Source: Pseudomonas baltica (lineage in GTDB: Bacteria > Pseudomonadota > Gammaproteobacteria > Pseudomonadales > Pseudomonadaceae). Taken from it: a stretch of DNA of 64,000 bases. Position numbers and translations under genes: made by a program. Positions 34,271 through 43,576 of the stretch are shown one piece after another; positions within the stretch are counted from its first letter, which is position 1; each line of letters starts with the position of its first letter. The notes beneath the pieces are model-generated. The model was not told the DNA's origin. It made no database searches and worked only from the letters and a program-made list of their open reading frames with translations. Location: NCBI RefSeq assembly GCF_031880315.1, contig NZ_CP134771.1, positions 6,566,423 through 6,630,422 of the forward strand, read 5' to 3'.

Positions 34271-34766
34271 GGGCGGTCTTTGGGTCAGGGGTTGTGTGGG
34301 TTGAAATGTGGCCGAGACTGCCCCTGACTTGAGGTTATGAGACTACGCATAATGTATATTATGTTAAATCGCGTATTTGGGTGTGGGCTGTGGTGCTGTT
34401 GTCATCGGTACCTGAAAACGAGACTTTGTCTGTAAAGACCATCCTCGCTGAAAATCAATCAGTTCAGCCACAGGTTGAAGTGAACGACCACGGGTGCGGC
34501 GTTAGGCTCCTCTTTATCAAGCAAGACCTAGATCATCGCAAGCGTCGAACTTTTCCCGCTCCCCCAAGGCCCTTCGATGGATAAGACGAAACCCGCTGGA
34601 CTCGACACCTTTGCGAATGAGGCCGTTGTTTGTACTTTCACAAGTATTTTTCCAACCCTCTAGGTATGCTCCGCGTTATAACCGATCACTGATACGGGGA
34701 TGCCAGCCCAGTCTTTGCTGCCCACGCAGTGCATGGAGCCGTACCTCTCAAGGACGTTTGAATACG
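34271..34766. other. Gap holding the left boundary repeat and the cassette leader
   Basis: No convincing gene. Bases 34330-34375 are AT-rich, unlike the flanks. The left direct repeat is at 34363-34403. A 67-codon open frame at 34381-34584 has no recognisable family and no ribosome site. AAGGA near 34750 is the probable ribosome site of the peptidase gene. Confidence 0.5.
34363..34403 (+). repeat. Left direct repeat flanking the peptidase-helicase cassette
   Basis: Starts GTTAAAT and contains GCGTATTTGGGTGTGG. The first 32 bases match 41461-41492 at 30 positions. After a two-base indel TGTTGTC is also shared. The two copies lie in the same orientation about 7.1 kb apart and bracket exactly two genes. 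Confidence 0.75.
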
Positions 34767-35969
34767 ATGAGTACCCCCGTGCTGGATATCAGCAGCCTGA
34801 CGCCACTGCCTTATCACCAGAGTGTCGTCGACTACCTGAAAGCCCATGAACCTGTCGTGTGGGAATGGGCCTCGTCCTTAGGCGTCCAGCAGGAACACGC
34901 CCAGGATGTACGTGCGCAATTGCTACGCGACACCTATCGCTTAAGTCCCGAGACCCATCCGCAGGCCTATCAGTCCTGTGAAACAGCATTGCAGTGCTTG
35001 CAGATCGCGGCACCCGCCACCCTTTACCAGGCTGGCGACGGCGCGATGAATGCGAGCCTCTATTACCTGACCGGTGAAGTGCATGTGGTGTTTTACGGGC
35101 CGATTCTTGAGCGGCTGGACGCCCAGGAATTGCTGGCATTGCTCGGGCACGAGTTGGCCCACTACCGCTTATGGTCGGAGCACAGTGGCGACTTTCTCAC
35201 TGCCGAGCGGATTCTCAATCACGCCATGGCCGACGTGAATACGCCGTCCAGTCTTGAACAGACTGCACGTCTATATAGCCTGCACACCGAAATTTATGCC
35301 GACCGCGGCGCTGCACTGGTGGCTAACGGATCAGAAGCGTCGATTACCTCGCTGGTCAAGATTCACACCGGCATTGTCAGCGTCGATGCGGCCAGCTACT
35401 TGAAGCAGGCCCGCGAGCTGGATGGCAAGGATGCGCCATTGTCCCAGGGCGTTTCTCATCCCGAGACGTTTCTGCGCTCCCAGGCTGTGGATAGCTGGTG
35501 GCAACAACTCCCGGATGCCGATAGCTGGCTGGATCGCCGGTTGCGCGGGCCGTTGTCGCTCAATCGCCTGGACGTGATCGACCAGATTGAGTTGACCGCC
35601 CTCACCCGCAGCTTTATTGCCCATTTCATCGGCTACCCCGCGTTGCAATCAGAGGTCGTGCTGAATCAGGTGCGCAGCTTCTTTCCCGATTGGAAGAACA
35701 ACGAAAAGCCACTCGACCTCGTTACACTGAATGCCGAGCGCATCGACACCAGCATCCATGAATACCTGCACTTCATCATGCTCGACCTGAGTCTGGTGGA
35801 CCGCGACTTGCGGGATGAAGCCCTGCTGCACGCCGCGCGCACCGCGAAGAAACTCGGCAGCGTCGATGACTTTATCAGCGTGCTCAAGCGCGATATCAAA
35901 CTACCCAAACGTCAGCTCGACCCGATCGTTAGCGCGCTCAAAGCGGAGGGCGACACATGGACCCAGTAA
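34767..35969 (+). CDS. Soluble M48-like zinc metallopeptidase, partner of the DUF4011 helicase
   Basis: A 400-residue protein with a gluzincin active site: HELAH at residues 128-132 and a likely third ligand Glu175 in EIYAD, the spacing and ExxAD form of M48 peptidases. Unlike HtpX or Ste24 it has no signal peptide or membrane helix, so it should act in the cytoplasm. The remaining two thirds is helical (a tail of LHAARTAKKLGSVDDFISVLKRD) and may bind the partner or a target. ATG 34767 follows AAGGA. The helicase gene begins 13 bases before its stop, so the two are translationally coupled. A proteolytic effector or activator role is inferred. Confidence 0.78.
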   Translation: MSTPVLDISSLTPLPYHQSVVDYLKAHEPVVWEWASSLGVQQEHAQDVRAQLLRDTYRLSPETHPQAYQSCETALQCLQIAAPATLYQAGDGAMNASLYYLTGEVHVVFYGPILERLDAQELLALLGHELAHYRLWSEHSGDFLTAERILNHAMADVNTPSSLEQTARLYSLHTEIYADRGAALVANGSEASITSLVKIHTGIVSVDAASYLKQARELDGKDAPLSQGVSHPETFLRSQAVDSWWQQLPDADSWLDRRLRGPLSLNRLDVIDQIELTALTRSFIAHFIGYPALQSEVVLNQVRSFFPDWKNNEKPLDLVTLNAERIDTSIHEYLHFIMLDLSLVDRDLRDEALLHAARTAKKLGSVDDFISVLKRDIKLPKRQLDPIVSALKAEGDTWTQ

Positions 35970-38900
35970 TCCAACCCGTCACGTTCACTCAATTGCTGCA
36001 AAACCACGATGGTGCCGCCGTGCCCATTGACGATGTGTTGTTCCTGACGCTGCCACTGCTGCTCCAGGTGGCACAGCTGCATGAGTCGGGACGAGTCGCG
36101 CAGATCAGTTATCTCGATGTGGTGCAAGGGCCGGAACGCACGTTGCAACTGCGTAATCCTGAAGGTGTCCCGCCGCAGCTGGCGCTGGAAGCAGTCAAGC
36201 AGGTGCAGCCCAACCCGGAATCGGCGCTGAATGTCGTCGGCAAAGTCCGCCTGACTCGGGACTCGGAAAGCGGCGTGGCAATTACCGACCTGCAAGTCCA
36301 GGAGGACCTGCATCAAGCCATTGACCACCCGGTATTCCTCCCAGAAATGCACAGTTGGGAGCATCGCCTCGGGCACCACGATGAGATCACCGACATATTC
36401 CAGCTCGGTCAGTTGTTGGCGTGTCTGGCATGCGGATTGGATTTCGCCGATATCAATGACCTAAAGACGTTTGCCCGGCACCGGCGCAACCTGTTTCAGG
36501 TCAATGGTCGGCTCAACCCGGTGTTGGCCAACCTGATCGTCGAGATGACCGAGCTCAACCGCCACGACCGCGCCACGGATGTGGCCTCGCTAGCGCGCCG
36601 CCTGGAGTCTTGGCGCGAGCAGCCGGCCAGTCTGGATGTCGAGCGTGTATTGGCCCAGGCCGAAGGGCCAGCGTCGCGGCGCACGGTGGTCCTGGAACAT
36701 CTGCGCAACCGTTTGTTTGACCTTTCGCGTCGCAATCGCCTGCTGTACTTCCGGCCTACCCAGGCCAACGTCAACCTGACCGTGGCCAGTGTGCCGTTGG
36801 TGATGCGCATTGAAAGTATCCGGCCCGAAGCGCTGTGCACCTGGCAGTCCACCTTCGGTGGTTTCTCCGAACAAGTGCTGAGTGGCAAACCTGTTGGCCT
36901 GCAGCAATGGCTGCGGTTTGAAGACCAGACGTGGTTGCAGGCGTCGCTGGAGCGCATCATCCAGGAAACCCGACGCGACCGTGCCGAGTTCGGCTTCAGC
37001 AACTTGCGCCTGGTAGTAGCCTTCATGCGCTGGCACAACCTAAAGGACACACCGGAAGAACGCATCGTCACCCCGCTGCTGTGGCTTCCAGTGGAGTTGA
37101 GTCGCAAAAAAGGTGTGCGTGACCAGTTCGTGTTGCAATGCGACGAAACCGAGGCGGAATTCAACCCGGTAATGCGTCATCAGCTGCGTCAGCTCTACGA
37201 TATCCAGTTGCCGGAAATCGTCGACCTGCAAAAGACTTCTCTGGAAGACATCCATGCCGATATTGCGCGCCAGATCAAACTGACCGAGCCCGGCGTCGAG
37301 TTACGCCTGCAAAGCAAACCGCAAATCGAGCTGATCCACCAGAAGGCTGTGCAGCATCTGCATCACTTCCAGCGCCGTCGCGCCCGTCAGCGCTCGGCGA
37401 TGCCTTTGGTAAAGCCGGATTTCAGCTACGACCGCGAAGATTTCCGTCCGCTGGGCCTCCAACTGTTCCAGCAAAAGGTACTACCCAGTGAGTTGCCGCT
37501 GCGCCTGGCCGTAGGCGCCAAACCCGTGCTGCGCAATCAACACCCTCAGATGGTCGCCAGGAGCGCCGAAAACAGTACCTTCGCATTGCCCCAGAACCAG
37601 GGACATCGCTACGCCTGGGACATCGACCTGACGCAGGTGACCCTGGCCAACTTCAACTATCGCAAGATGTCGCTGGTGCGTGACTATGCGCAGTTGATCG
37701 ACGAACCAGCGCAGAACGAAGCGTTTGACCGGATGTTCTCCATCGAACCTAGGGACGTCGAGGTCCAAACTCCAGACCCGATCCCGTTGCCGAAACAGTG
37801 GAACGTGGTCGCCGGTGACGCTACGCAAAATGCTGCCGTCAGCCTGGCCCGTACCGGGCGTAATTTCATCATTCAAGGACCGCCGGGCACCGGCAAGTCC
37901 CAGACCATCACCAACCTGATCGCGGACTACGCAGGTCGCGGTCTGCGGGTGCTGTTCGTCTGTGAAAAACGTGCGGCGCTGGACGTCGTGTTCCATCGCC
38001 TGCAACAAAGTGAACTGGGCGAATTGTGCTGTCTGATTCACGACTCCCAGACTGATAAAAAAGCCTTCGTGGGCAACCTGCGCGAGTGTTATGAGCGTTG
38101 GATCGCCGGCGATGCGCAGTCGCCGCAGTTGCAAGCCCGGCGCGAAACCCTGCTGGCTGGCCTGAGCCAACAACTGGGCTTGATAGAGGGTTTTGAACAG
38201 GCAATGGCTGGGGTGCCGGAGTCCTTGGCATGCTCGGTGCGCGAGTTGGTGCGCCATCTGATCCAGCTGCCTTCCGTCGCTGCCAAGCAGCCACCCGAAG
38301 CCTTGGAGCGCTTGCCCGAATGGCGTCATTGGCAGGCACAAAGCGAGCTGACCGGCCGCGTGTATCAGGCGTTCAAAGAACGTTTCGGTCTCGACAGTTT
38401 TGCACGTCATCCTTTTAGCCATTTGGCCTCAAGCCTGATTATCCACGAACATGCTTATGGCCAACTCAAGGCGTTTCTGGATGAAGCCAGTGGGCTGATG
38501 GACAGCGTTGAGCAGTACCTGGAGTCATCGTCGAGCCTGCTGTCCGGGGACACCGGCCTGACGGATGCGTGTGCACTGACCCAGGCCGCGGAACAACTGA
38601 CCACCGCCAACCTGGCAACGCACCTCGACCTGTTGGAGCCTGGCTCGCCGGGCTTCCAGGCGCTGCACGCCGAACAGGTGGCGTTGCAGGCATTGACCGT
38701 ACAGCAACACAACGCCCGTGAATCGACCCATCACTGGCGGGAAAAACTCGCGCCCCAGGACACTCAGGCTGCACTCAACCTGGCGCAGCGGCTGGAAGGC
38801 TCGCCGCTGAGGTGGCTGCAACCTGCTTGGTGGCGATTGCGCGGCGAATTGCACCGACGCTACGATTTCAACCAGCACGCGATTCGCCCGAGTTTCATCA

Positions 38901-41419
38901 GCGTGCTCGACAGCCTGGCCGGCGAACACCGGGCCACTGCCGAGCTGCACGCCGAGCAGCAACGCCTGCAAGGTCGCTATGGCATCCCGGATATCGACCT
39001 GTTCGTGCACAACCTGCAAGCGCTGCTTCAGCAACTGAGCGCATCACCGCTATTGCGCCAGTGGTTGGAAGGCCTGCGGGGTAATTCGGATTCCCTGCCC
39101 CGCGTGCGCCAGCAAGCCAACCTGCGCCAGCCAGTGGCGCGCTTGGCCGAACTGGTCGCGCAACATTGTGTGTTCGACCAGGCGCCGAGCCTGGCCGAGC
39201 TGGCCGAATATCTGCGCGATCTGCGTGAAGAACTCGACGAACTGCCCGACACCCTGCCCCTACTCAATGAGTTGCACCAAGCCGATCCTGTCTGCTTGGC
39301 GGTCGTGCAAAAGTACGCCTTGGCGCAACGTGCACTGGACGGTTTGATTGCTCAGGAAAACCTGACTCGCCTGTACCGCGCTAACCCGAAACTGGCGCGC
39401 TTCGATGGCCTTGCCTTGAGTTTGGCTGCACGTCAGGTCAGCCAGGCTGAAAGCAGCCTGCTCAAAAGTAATGCTCACGTGCTCAGCGCTGCGTTGCACC
39501 AGCGTTTTCTGGAGCATGTGAAGCAATCAGCAATGTCGGTGACTCAGCTGGACGCCCAAGCCCGTGAGTTCAAGAAAGCCTACGCCAAGGGCCGCCGTGA
39601 GCTCGAACACGAGCTGGGCAAGACAATGCGCTATCGCTCCATCCGCGAAATGGCGAGTGGCGACAGTGGCCGGGTGATCAACGATCTCAAGCCCATCTGG
39701 TTGATGAGCCCGCTGTCGGTATCCGACACCCTGCCATTGACGCCGGACCTGTTTGACGTGGTGATTTTCGACGAAGCCAGCCAGATCCCCAGCGAAGAAG
39801 CCGTGCCGGCCCTGAGCCGTGCGCAGCAGGTGATTGTGGTGGGTGACGAGATGCAGTTGCCACCGACCAACTTCTTCTCCAGTGCCGGAGAACAGGACGA
39901 CAACGAACTGATTGCCATGGAGGACGGCGAGCAGATCGCAATCAACCTTGATGCTGATAGCCTGCTCAGCCAAGCCGCGCGTAACTTACCGGCGACCCTC
40001 TTGGCCTGGCACTACCGTAGTCGCCACGAAGCCTTGATCAGTTTCTCCAATGCAGCATTCTACGAAGGGCGGTTGATCACCATTCCTGATCGTCGTATCG
40101 AGCGCCCTGCCCCGGCTCACGCGGCCCTTGACTCCACGGACGTCCAGGCAGTGATCCAGGGCGCCGACACGCTGTTGGAAAGCCCGATCAGCTTCTTGAA
40201 GATGAGCGACGGTGTCTACCTCAGCCGCAGCAACGTGGCCGAAGCACGCTATATCGCCAACCTGGTGCGCGAGCTGCTGCAACGCGATACCGGCCTGAGC
40301 CTGGGTATCGTGGCGTTTTCCGAGGCCCAGCAAGGTGCCATCGACCAGGCCCTGGAAGACCTGGCCAGCAGTGACTCGGCCTTTGCTACGCGGCTTGAGC
40401 GCGAGTACGTGCGTGAAGATGCCGGGCAATTCAATGGCCTGTTCGTCAAGAACCTGGAGAACGTTCAGGGGGACGAGCGGGATGTGATCATCCTGAGCAT
40501 CTGCTACGCGCCCGGACCGAACGGCAAAATGCTGATGAACTTCGGCCCGATCAACCAGCGTGGCGGCGAAAAACGCCTCAATGTGATCTTCAGTCGCGCC
40601 CGCAAGCGCATGGCGATCGTATCCAGCATCGAATCCGAGGCCATCACCAACACCCACAACGACGGCGCTGCTGCACTGCGCGCGTTCCTGCAGTTTGCGC
40701 ATGCCAGTGCCAGTGGGGATGCGCCGCGCTCCCAAGGTATCCTCGCCAACCTTAATCCAGGCGCCAGGCAGTCCTTTGCCGTAAGCCTGCCAAAGGACCA
40801 CCTGCGCAGTACCCTCGCCGCTGCGTTGCGCAAACGCGGCCATTCTGTTCAGGAGTGTGTCGGGCGTTCACAGTTCCGCTGTGACCTGGCGATCAGTGAC
40901 GCCAGCGGCGAACACTTCAGCCTCGGCGTGCTGTTGGACGGTGATACGGCGGCTGCAACTGACGTGCGTGAGCGTTATATCTTCCGTCCGACGGTACTGC
41001 GCAGTTTCGGTTGGAAGATTATCGACGTGCTCAGCCATGATTGGCTGCGAGACCCGGAAGACGTGCTCAATCGTATCGAAGGGCTGCTAAGGAATGAGGA
41101 AACGCCTGCGCTACCAGAACTAGAACCACAACAGACAGAGGGAACCTTCGAGATTGAGGCCGACGTACCAGTCACCACGCAAGCGTCACCCTTGATGCGC
41201 GAGTTCACCTTTGGAGAAGGCAATTCCAACAAGTTCTGGCGGATTGGCGTGGCGGATGTCGAGCTCACGGTGAATTTTGGTCGTATCGGCACCAAGGGTC
41301 AGACCCTGATCAAGTCCCTCGACAGTCCCGAGCGCGCTTTGCGTGAAGCAGACAAGCTGATCGCGGAGAAACTCCGCAAAGGGTATCAAGAGCAAGCGGA
41401 TTCGATCACCCCGGAGTGA
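35957..41419 (+). CDS. Giant DUF4011-SF1 helicase-decayed nuclease-WGR protein, candidate defence sensor
   Basis: An 1,820-residue cytosolic protein. Residues 1-230 look like a degenerate protein kinase C-lobe (TDIFQLGQLLACLACG around Asp146; no usable catalytic loop). DUF4011 starts near 241 (RNRLFDLSRRNRLLYFRPT). A Upf1-like SF1 helicase has Walker A GPPGTGKS with Lys647, a 620-residue insert, Walker B FDEAS with Asp1272, GDEMQLPPT near 1295, and a C-terminal FSRARKR. A Vsr/DUF559-like fold follows with Asp1643, but the expected catalytic Glu is Leu1659 and the histidine is missing. A WGR domain occupies about 1748-1815. GGAGGG precedes ATG 35957. The architecture resembles Hhe-type anti-phage proteins, with differences described in the findings. 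Confidence 0.85.
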   Translation: MDPVIQPVTFTQLLQNHDGAAVPIDDVLFLTLPLLLQVAQLHESGRVAQISYLDVVQGPERTLQLRNPEGVPPQLALEAVKQVQPNPESALNVVGKVRLTRDSESGVAITDLQVQEDLHQAIDHPVFLPEMHSWEHRLGHHDEITDIFQLGQLLACLACGLDFADINDLKTFARHRRNLFQVNGRLNPVLANLIVEMTELNRHDRATDVASLARRLESWREQPASLDVERVLAQAEGPASRRTVVLEHLRNRLFDLSRRNRLLYFRPTQANVNLTVASVPLVMRIESIRPEALCTWQSTFGGFSEQVLSGKPVGLQQWLRFEDQTWLQASLERIIQETRRDRAEFGFSNLRLVVAFMRWHNLKDTPEERIVTPLLWLPVELSRKKGVRDQFVLQCDETEAEFNPVMRHQLRQLYDIQLPEIVDLQKTSLEDIHADIARQIKLTEPGVELRLQSKPQIELIHQKAVQHLHHFQRRRARQRSAMPLVKPDFSYDREDFRPLGLQLFQQKVLPSELPLRLAVGAKPVLRNQHPQMVARSAENSTFALPQNQGHRYAWDIDLTQVTLANFNYRKMSLVRDYAQLIDEPAQNEAFDRMFSIEPRDVEVQTPDPIPLPKQWNVVAGDATQNAAVSLARTGRNFIIQGPPGTGKSQTITNLIADYAGRGLRVLFVCEKRAALDVVFHRLQQSELGELCCLIHDSQTDKKAFVGNLRECYERWIAGDAQSPQLQARRETLLAGLSQQLGLIEGFEQAMAGVPESLACSVRELVRHLIQLPSVAAKQPPEALERLPEWRHWQAQSELTGRVYQAFKERFGLDSFARHPFSHLASSLIIHEHAYGQLKAFLDEASGLMDSVEQYLESSSSLLSGDTGLTDACALTQAAEQLTTANLATHLDLLEPGSPGFQALHAEQVALQALTVQQHNARESTHHWREKLAPQDTQAALNLAQRLEGSPLRWLQPAWWRLRGELHRRYDFNQHAIRPSFISVLDSLAGEHRATAELHAEQQRLQGRYGIPDIDLFVHNLQALLQQLSASPLLRQWLEGLRGNSDSLPRVRQQANLRQPVARLAELVAQHCVFDQAPSLAELAEYLRDLREELDELPDTLPLLNELHQADPVCLAVVQKYALAQRALDGLIAQENLTRLYRANPKLARFDGLALSLAARQVSQAESSLLKSNAHVLSAALHQRFLEHVKQSAMSVTQLDAQAREFKKAYAKGRRELEHELGKTMRYRSIREMASGDSGRVINDLKPIWLMSPLSVSDTLPLTPDLFDVVIFDEASQIPSEEAVPALSRAQQVIVVGDEMQLPPTNFFSSAGEQDDNELIAMEDGEQIAINLDADSLLSQAARNLPATLLAWHYRSRHEALISFSNAAFYEGRLITIPDRRIERPAPAHAALDSTDVQAVIQGADTLLESPISFLKMSDGVYLSRSNVAEARYIANLVRELLQRDTGLSLGIVAFSEAQQGAIDQALEDLASSDSAFATRLEREYVREDAGQFNGLFVKNLENVQGDERDVIILSICYAPGPNGKMLMNFGPINQRGGEKRLNVIFSRARKRMAIVSSIESEAITNTHNDGAAALRAFLQFAHASASGDAPRSQGILANLNPGARQSFAVSLPKDHLRSTLAAALRKRGHSVQECVGRSQFRCDLAISDASGEHFSLGVLLDGDTAAATDVRERYIFRPTVLRSFGWKIIDVLSHDWLRDPEDVLNRIEGLLRNEETPALPELEPQQTEGTFEIEADVPVTTQASPLMREFTFGEGNSNKFWRIGVADVELTVNFGRIGTKGQTLIKSLDSPERALREADKLIAEKLRKGYQEQADSITPE

Positions 41420-41806: not shown

Positions 41807-43492
41807 TCACTGAGGCAACGCGTACGCCACTACGTAGTCTCCCTTTTTCGTCGTAGCGGAGTTTCCACCCGCGCTGATGACAACAAACTGCCTGCCGCTT
41901 TTAGGCGAGATGTAAGTCATCGGCGTAGCTTCCGCACCAACAGGCAGGCGTCCTTTCCACAGTTCCTTGCCCGTGCGCACATCCAGTGCACGGATATAGA
42001 AGTCCTGCGACGCAGCAATAAACACCAGGCCGGTCGACGTGGTGACTGGCCCTCCCCGCGTCGGCATGCCGATAGGCATCGGCAGATGGGTGGCTATACC
42101 CAGTGGGCCAGTGTCTTGCGTCGTTCCAAGCGGCATCGACCATGCGACCTTGCGTGTTGCCAAGTCGATAGCGCTGATGGTTCCGTACGGCGGCTCCTGG
42201 CAGGGGATCCCCAATGGCGACAGGAAACGTCCCATCTCGATCCCCCATGGCGTACCTGCCTGCTGTGCATTGCCCTCATGGCCGCGCGTACCCGGCGTGT
42301 AGCCCTGTCCTTCTGGGGGCTCACGGGTAATCGCGGGGTTACCCAAGTCCCATGCCCAGACAAGCGCGCCTGTGCGGACATTGAATGCGCGTACGACTCC
42401 GGAAGGCTCCCCGGTTTTCTGGTTATCCCAGACCAAACCCCCAACGACGACCAGATCGCGCACAACGGTGGGGGCTGCTGTCGGAAAATAAAGCTCCTTG
42501 TCAGGGCTTCCCATACCGATCCGCAGGCTCACACTGCCGTGGTCGCCAAAGTCGGTACAAGCCTCCCCTGTTTGCGCATCAACGGCTATCAGGCGCGCAT
42601 CGACGGCGGTGGCAATGATTCGACGAGTGCAAGCGGCTGCGGGCACGGAGTTCCCGGAATCCGATGTTTGCGCAGTCGAATCGTGATAACCCACCCCACG
42701 ACAGCGCGGGTAGACGTTGTTGGTTTGTACCTTGGGATCGTGGTGCCATATCTCCTTCCCGGTCTCGTCGTCCAGGGCAAAGAGCTGACTGGACTGAGTA
42801 CAACCGTAGAGCACGCCATCAACGTGCAGCGGCGTCACCACATGGCCTTCGCTGCTACCCTTTGGGATTTCTCCCGTCCGATACGTCCAGGCGACCTTGA
42901 GGTCAGAGACGTTTTGCGCAGTGATCTTGTCCAGGACGGCGTGCCGAGTGCCTGATGGGGTATGCCCGAAGTAGCGCCAATCGGCAGCCGGCTCGACGGT
43001 GCCAACGGCTTTGCCAGGCACAGGCGTCGGTGCTCCGTCGGCTGTCTGGATTGGCTGTGGTTGCAGCGCTGCGTAAAACGTAGCTGCGAGGCCCACGGCC
43101 ACCGCCAATGCGCACATATAGGAAAGCCTGGCTTTTGCAGTTTTGCGGCCAGGAGCCAGCGTAGGTATCGCCAGCAGCACCAACAAAGCGAGGACTGCCA
43201 ACGCGAACAATCGAGAAAACAGCGGCCACAAGGCCAGGCCCACATCCCATACAGCCCAGGCTATCGACGCCACGAATACCGCTAGATATAGCAAAGCACC
43301 TGACAGGCGCCGGCGCACCAGAAGGATCCGGGCTACGGTCATCCCCAACCCCGCCAGCGCGAAGTACCAGGAACCGCTTAGCGTAATGAGATAGACGCCA
43401 GCGATGAGCATGAACAGCCCTGGAAGCAGAGTGATCATACCTAGCGCAATCAGTAGCGCGCGGGCTATCCGGGATGGGTTTGTGTCCGGCAT
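41807..43492 (-). pseudogene. gcd: Membrane PQQ glucose dehydrogenase with in-frame deletion of the catalytic region
   Basis: Reads as one open frame of 561 residues against about 800 for Gcd. The five N-terminal membrane helices are present, as are the early propeller (WRYFGHTPSGTRHA, WTYRTGE, NNVYPRCRGVGYHD) and the late one (GTPWGIEMGRFLSPLGIPC, FIAASQDFYIRALD, PVGAEATPMTYISPKSGRQF). Around 42300 the frame jumps from EGQGYT straight to PGTRGHEG, leaving out about 230-240 residues. In E. coli this part holds the catalytic Asp466 and Lys493. It therefore cannot be a normal glucose oxidase. Start ATG 43492 follows AAGGA. A distinct short quinoprotein is possible but unlikely. Confidence 0.75.
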
Positions 43493-43576
43493 AAATGACT
43501 TCCTTGATACGCTATTGAGCATGGGTGCTCTTGGGCTTGCCTGGGCATAACTGATAAAGCGCACAGCCCAGACGGG

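Follow-up and report, generated by a model that had tools for sequence, protein, structure and literature searches.

The locus considered here raises the question of what a zinc protease and a giant helicase-bearing protein, encoded by overlapping genes, do together in Pseudomonas baltica. The window, a stretch of 64,000 nucleotides (NZ_CP134771.1, positions 6,566,423 to 6,630,422), closes a 6.63 Mb genome that consists of one contig, where the giant is present in one copy. The gene of an M48-family protease occupies positions 34767-35969 of the forward strand and encodes 400 residues from the ATG at 34767 (the listed open reading frame, ORF, begins at an upstream TTG). The giant gene follows on the same strand at 35957-41419 and encodes 1820 residues, in which a pseudokinase, DUF4011, a superfamily 1 (SF1) helicase, a probably inactive Vsr-like restriction endonuclease (REase) fold and a WGR domain succeed one another. 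According to the ORF list the two genes share 13 bases (35957..35969, forward strand), in agreement with an initial annotation that had read them, from the DNA alone, as a candidate undescribed defence system. Our data revealed that the M48 protease and the giant are a real, obligate two-gene system, in which the nuclease-like fold has lost its catalytic Glu position and the protease and helicase motifs are intact.

The pairing was followed from both sides. A scan of genome contigs with a 38-sequence protease alignment confirmed 115 relatives, and in the 80 best of these, which were kept, the giant stood directly downstream and on the same strand in 80/80 loci, although in pieces at three of them (L050, L055, and L068). 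The gene overlap recurred at these protease-found loci, being 4 nt long in 38/80 and 13 nt long in 13/80 with ORF starts set mechanically. The hosts were Pseudomonas, Burkholderiales, Lysobacter/Xanthomonas and relatives, and Alphaproteobacteria, together with two Verrucomicrobia records. The reverse search used a giant profile built regardless of the protease, at thresholds (1e-200 to 1e-100) that leave weaker relatives outside the counts, and matched 3/369 genomes of the class (1e-200), 15/398 of the window's genus (1e-150) and, at 1e-100, 4/398 genomes of the phylum, 4/299 of the family of genome G1147 and 17/81 of its genus. The protease adjoined the giant in 36 of the 37 distinct giant-bearing genomes (counted by hand); in G482 both genes were broken, the protease also being in pieces, and in G095 and G1529 the giant was in two pieces. 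The exception, G1023, encodes a DUF4011 protein in a 2215-residue frame (473 bits) that keeps the nuclease Glu and carries neither pseudokinase nor WGR, and no protease was found in the 18 kb read there. Moreover, the distance matrices of M48 and giant were strongly correlated (r = 0.978, 77 loci, with species history still included), and 0/1000 permutations gave a value as high. The co-occurrence that the initial annotation had proposed to check was borne out beyond chance (80/80 of the best loci), and the adverse outcome it had named, a peptidase missing beside most giants, did not appear.

Two side observations belong to the giant's distribution. At L105/L106 (in G482), L050, and L068, stop codons or changes of frame divide or disrupt the giant. 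Two SIR2_2-domain ORFs flank the G1023 protein (locus L147), a DUF4011 giant with Glu; this is a defence-like setting with no counterpart around the protease-paired loci examined.

The giant itself carries two folds that have lost catalytic positions. Residue conservation was scored in rows that are loci, with some genomes entering twice. The Vsr-like REase fold (MTES_1575, residues 1620-1708, 40814..41080, forward strand; PF18741, E = 1.4e-16) retains the first Asp of the site (D in 111 and E in 3 of 114 rows). At the Glu position of the IECDG motif, which we take to be the catalytic residue, the window protein has Leu1659; Leu occupies this place in 105 rows and 8 carry a different residue, with Glu in 0/113 family rows and a motif mostly of ILLD/VLLD type, and the sole Glu row in the alignment of 114 is the outlier L113. 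Among the DUF4011/DUF3320 relatives scored, the Glu was kept in 122/123, the exception being L110. This outgroup held 125 proteins, mostly from one clade (the best homologues of a Bosea protein), of which 123 were scored, with P0278 and L107 outside and L107 read separately. Because the catalytic Glu is lost, the giant's REase fold is probably inactive as a nuclease, and the absence of Glu in 113/113 family rows backs the earlier proposal that nuclease output has been replaced by a protease. The initial annotation had missed this loss, as well as an N-terminal pseudokinase (about residues 7-224, 35975..36628, forward strand). The latter has the fold of a kinase C-lobe, from which most structure-search matches align the giant's model, and lacks both the N-lobe and the catalytic HRD Asp, whose position holds Leu or Ile in 32/32 rows (register set by eye). 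Its profile was found in 113/119 family rows and in 0/125 outgroup proteins. Both the kinase-like and the nuclease-like domain probably have a binding or regulatory function.

The remaining enzymatic parts are conserved. Each Pfam match of the giant (DUF4011, AAA_11, AAA_12, MTES_1575, and WGR) passes its own Pfam cut-off, and the domains listed in the initial annotation (M48, DUF4011, SF1 helicase, Vsr-like fold, and WGR) were all recovered by Pfam, with HELAH and Walker A Lys647 correctly placed. On the forward strand, DUF4011 spans residues 252-410 (36710..37186; PF13195, E = 5.9e-15), and is followed by the first helicase segment (AAA_11, residues 621-684, 37817..38008; PF13086) with Walker A GPPGTGKS at residues 641-648, Walker B DEAS at residues 1272-1275 (39770..39781) and the second helicase segment (AAA_12, residues 1335-1557, 39959..40627; PF13087, E = 7.4e-18). 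G644, G646, K647, and S648 of Walker A, like D1272 and E1273 of Walker B, are kept in all rows with a residue (114/119); likewise the 13 helicase positions tested (both Walker motifs and the arginine motifs) are invariant in 114/119 rows, the other five being gaps. A profile match to SMUBP-2 (E = 2.6e-11) agrees with the SF1 (Upf1-like) assignment. The WGR domain (residues 1747-1815, 41195..41401, forward strand; PF05406, E = 5.1e-19) was detected in 81/119 rows and is absent from all 12 named Variovorax loci and from L023, L025, and L086, where the pair is still present.

The protease gene (34767..35969, forward strand) matches Peptidase_M48 (PF01435, E = 4.5e-9, 36.8 bits against a cut-off of 20.3) and shows the HExxH and downstream Glu of that family. 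The HELAH zinc-binding and catalytic motif (residues 128-132, 35148..35162, forward strand) has H128, E129, and H132 in 114/115 loci, with one gap, and E175 (35289..35291, forward strand), which by analogy is presumably at the position of the third M48 zinc ligand, is invariant in 115/115 loci with the protease. No transmembrane-like hydropathy was found in any 19-residue window by a simple Kyte-Doolittle scan, and the protein is probably soluble, as the initial annotation had held. The protease gave zero matches to PADLOC models up to E 1, and its family profile zero sequence matches to solved chains at E 0.01; residues past about 260 were hardly covered by structural matches. Separately, Herbaspirillum sp. 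RV1423 carries a second, truncated copy of the protease gene (L033:217-729; 92% identical over 165 residues), with a Sel1-repeat protein and the complete pair downstream of it.

The nearest named relatives of the giant are anti-phage proteins. ProA (NF058533, 'anti-phage protein ProA'; also PADLOC PDC-S37) has the architecture DUF4011-helicase-MTES_1575-DUF3320, and a passage of PMC3710099 names MTES_1575 as a Vsr-like REase and DUF3320 as a winged helix-turn-helix domain. Like ProA, the giant joins the DUF4011 and SF1 helicase core to a Vsr-like fold in one protein; however, it scores 689 bits against a ProA cut-off of 1500 (best stretch 553-1729), has Leu at the Glu of the D...ExD site, and differs in its pseudokinase N-terminus, its usual WGR, the lack of a DUF3320 match, and its obligate M48 partner. 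Hhe (NF042953/PDLC02194) likewise shares DUF4011, helicase, and Vsr-like fold, but the giant reaches 480 bits against the 2000-bit cut-off, and unlike this single-gene system with an intact nuclease site it has a partner gene in 80/80 loci. The Hhe protein of a Klebsiella plasmid (L107) keeps its nuclease site (GIECDG) and is devoid of pseudokinase and WGR, and no M48 gene was found in the 10 kb read there. When three outgroup proteins were scored with NCBIfam, P0241 (2141) and L111 (2190) passed ProA and the Klebsiella Hhe (2735) passed Hhe. PADLOC gave the giant an E-value of 1e-207 with PDC-S37 and of 2e-100 with Hhe. A profile search detected no M48 close to the four plasmid relatives that are annotated with DUF3320 (L108-L111); among these, a ProA score was obtained for L111 alone. 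Three of them (L108, L109, and L111, on rhizobial-type and Paraburkholderia plasmids) adjoin genes with annotations as DNA repair exonuclease and as YhaN or AAA family proteins, and these plasmid relatives possibly have a partner set of their own.

The protease is likewise set apart from known M48 peptidases (ZMPSTE24, BepA, HtpX, and the minigluzincins), with no profile match to a solved chain and no transmembrane-like window. SPRTN and Wss1 are zinc proteases tied to a DNA-binding or translocating partner and provide a functional analogy only; they belong to another protease family, and the check for a SprT/WLM fold gave an E-value of 0.17 for SprT-like Pfam and a weak structural match to SPRTN (6mdw, rank 30, E = 2.2). 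No published M48-DUF4011 pair was found in the literature searched, in which subscription journals were thinly covered. With the giant below the Hhe and ProA cut-offs and the protease unmatched in PADLOC, the earlier statement that no described system was known to pair the two was supported. The pair is probably undescribed, although it is not categorically new, because its DUF4011-helicase core is common to known anti-phage proteins.

In this context, the reading that best explains the locus as a whole, to which we assign a probability of about 0.45, is that a helicase of immunity or genome guarding gave up its nuclease in exchange for a zinc protease encoded by a gene of its own, with the pseudokinase and pseudonuclease as regulatory parts and nucleic-acid sensing leading to proteolysis; the pair would be one obligate machine of a new prokaryotic kind, a helicase-gated protease with a role in conflict or defence. 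The giant, with intact SF1 motifs, would act as nucleic-acid motor and scaffold, and the M48 protease, made from the overlapping gene, would be the only intact effector enzyme. The helicase might engage an unusual nucleic acid, such as phage replication DNA or a DNA end; an ATP-driven rearrangement would then position or activate the protease, which would cut a protein at the bound DNA or in the cell. We infer that the two proteins join in a complex, that nucleic acid switches it on, what it acts on, and that it serves defence; the phage sensing and abortive infection proposed in the initial annotation would be suggestions of the same kind. The defence role is favored since ProA and Hhe, the closest relatives with a name, carry anti-phage annotations. 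The patchy presence within genera and the varied neighbourhoods of the Pseudomonas loci also speak for the reading as a whole.

Several observations weigh against such a role. A greedy longest-ORF script supplied the neighbour genes, some of which are spurious, and the analysis covered 130 of 134 selected proteins at 14 Pseudomonas-type loci and 107 of 171 at loci outside Pseudomonas. PADLOC matched mad3 (2), TnsB (1), PtuB (1), and mad8 (1) among the 130 and none of the 107 nearest neighbours outside Pseudomonas, while in the control, 137 genes taken from arbitrarily chosen Pseudomonas stretches (14 of them), the matches were mad3 (3) and 26 other models, among them helicases and regulators (one member each apart from mad3 in the 25 of 27 families shown). 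Measured against this control, defence genes are not enriched near the pair and the neighbours do not form a defence island above background; the co-occurrence check suggested in the initial annotation therefore held for the two homologues as a pair and failed for their vicinity to defence genes. No protease homologue was found by tblastn in 72,556 plasmid and 50,697 phage records, and 7 pattern matches in a viral-contig scan yielded zero confirmed; this is unusual for a mobile defence system. By these neighbour and replicon results the claim of a defence system in the initial annotation is not supported. Furthermore, columns of the giant alignment are on average 67% identical (36 rows), a strong conservation that is unusual for an arms-race gene, and the nearest-neighbour loci of M48 and giant agree in only 43/77.

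The ordinary surroundings, the lack of mobile homologues and the conservation of the giant would instead suit genome maintenance, a possible but less likely explanation, in which the helicase would move along DNA, breaks or damaged ends would be marked by WGR, and M48, much as SPRTN/Wss1 do, would clear stuck or crosslinked proteins. What favors such a clearing of DNA is this context and WGR, a DNA-damage domain in PARPs. However, a patchy presence within genera (15/398 and 17/81 genomes), the persistence of the pair where WGR is missing, and the weak likeness to SPRTN do not fit well with housekeeping repair, and neither does the upstream sequence: SOS control was considered and rejected, as LexA-type patterns occur upstream in just 5/80 loci, at scattered and unconserved positions (counted with no shuffle control). 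It is improbable that the pair is a stress or immune signalling switch, in which the DNA-bound giant would activate the protease to cleave one host regulator and evoke a transcriptional response, on the models of IrrE, which cleaves DdrO, and CapP, which cleaves CapH. Even less plausible is a ProA/Hhe-like nuclease acting alone in defence with the protease as accessory maturation factor; the common DUF4011, helicase, and REase fold and the strong PDC-S37 and Hhe matches speak for it, but the REase Glu is absent from every family row, the protease HExxH is kept throughout, and the pair is almost never separated.

The surroundings of the pair were further described by Pfam, in tallies that count families rather than proteins; of the families shown (25 of 117 and 25 of 90), most belong to metabolism, transport, or regulation, and two DDE transposases are among them. 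Matches of the giant in 461 plasmid records stayed under 60% identity, and in no case did they extend over 80% of its length. By inspection, 13 Pseudomonas loci fell into about 10 different neighbourhoods, and the neighbours of Variovorax and Sphingomonas loci were mostly common within the genus. A conserved stretch of about 160 alignment columns (34607..34766, forward strand; left end approximate) precedes the protease gene and is a probable promoter or leader: across 12 Pseudomonas loci in differing chromosomal contexts (L016 omitted), of the eight 20-column blocks that precede the ATG, seven had a mean pairwise identity of 0.65-0.82 and the remaining, gapped one 0.19, and the value was at most 0.32 beyond the eight. 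The varied Pseudomonas neighbourhoods, conserved upstream stretch, and ordinary context therefore indicate a self-contained chromosomal cassette, and the pair behaves like one that genomes gain or lose, and unlike a typical resident of defence islands. A passage of PMC10250203 describes a core DUF4011 gene flanking a P. aeruginosa defence hotspot.

The closest named record, Pseudomonas sp. MWU16-30317 (L008), has an identical protease and 99.25% identity over 7.9 kb. Cassette and downstream flank are about 99% alike, and the upstream flanks (window 34395; L008 upstream of 9628) are unmatched within window positions 24001-50000, which suggests a rearrangement beside the cassette. Downstream, the pyrroloquinoline quinone (PQQ)-dependent dehydrogenase ORF (window 41807-43564) has 585 residues against 817 in L008; the 696 bases of L008 not in the window at about 42285 are an internal in-frame difference in this ORF.

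In brief, the pair is spread over many Proteobacteria and some Verrucomicrobia, and in its architecture a lost nuclease site is accompanied by a constant protease partner and by a pseudokinase. Immunity or the removal of proteins from DNA may be the role of the pair; if the favored reading is true, recognition of nucleic acid would be linked to proteolysis in these bacteria, serving either immunity or the repair of DNA blocked by proteins.
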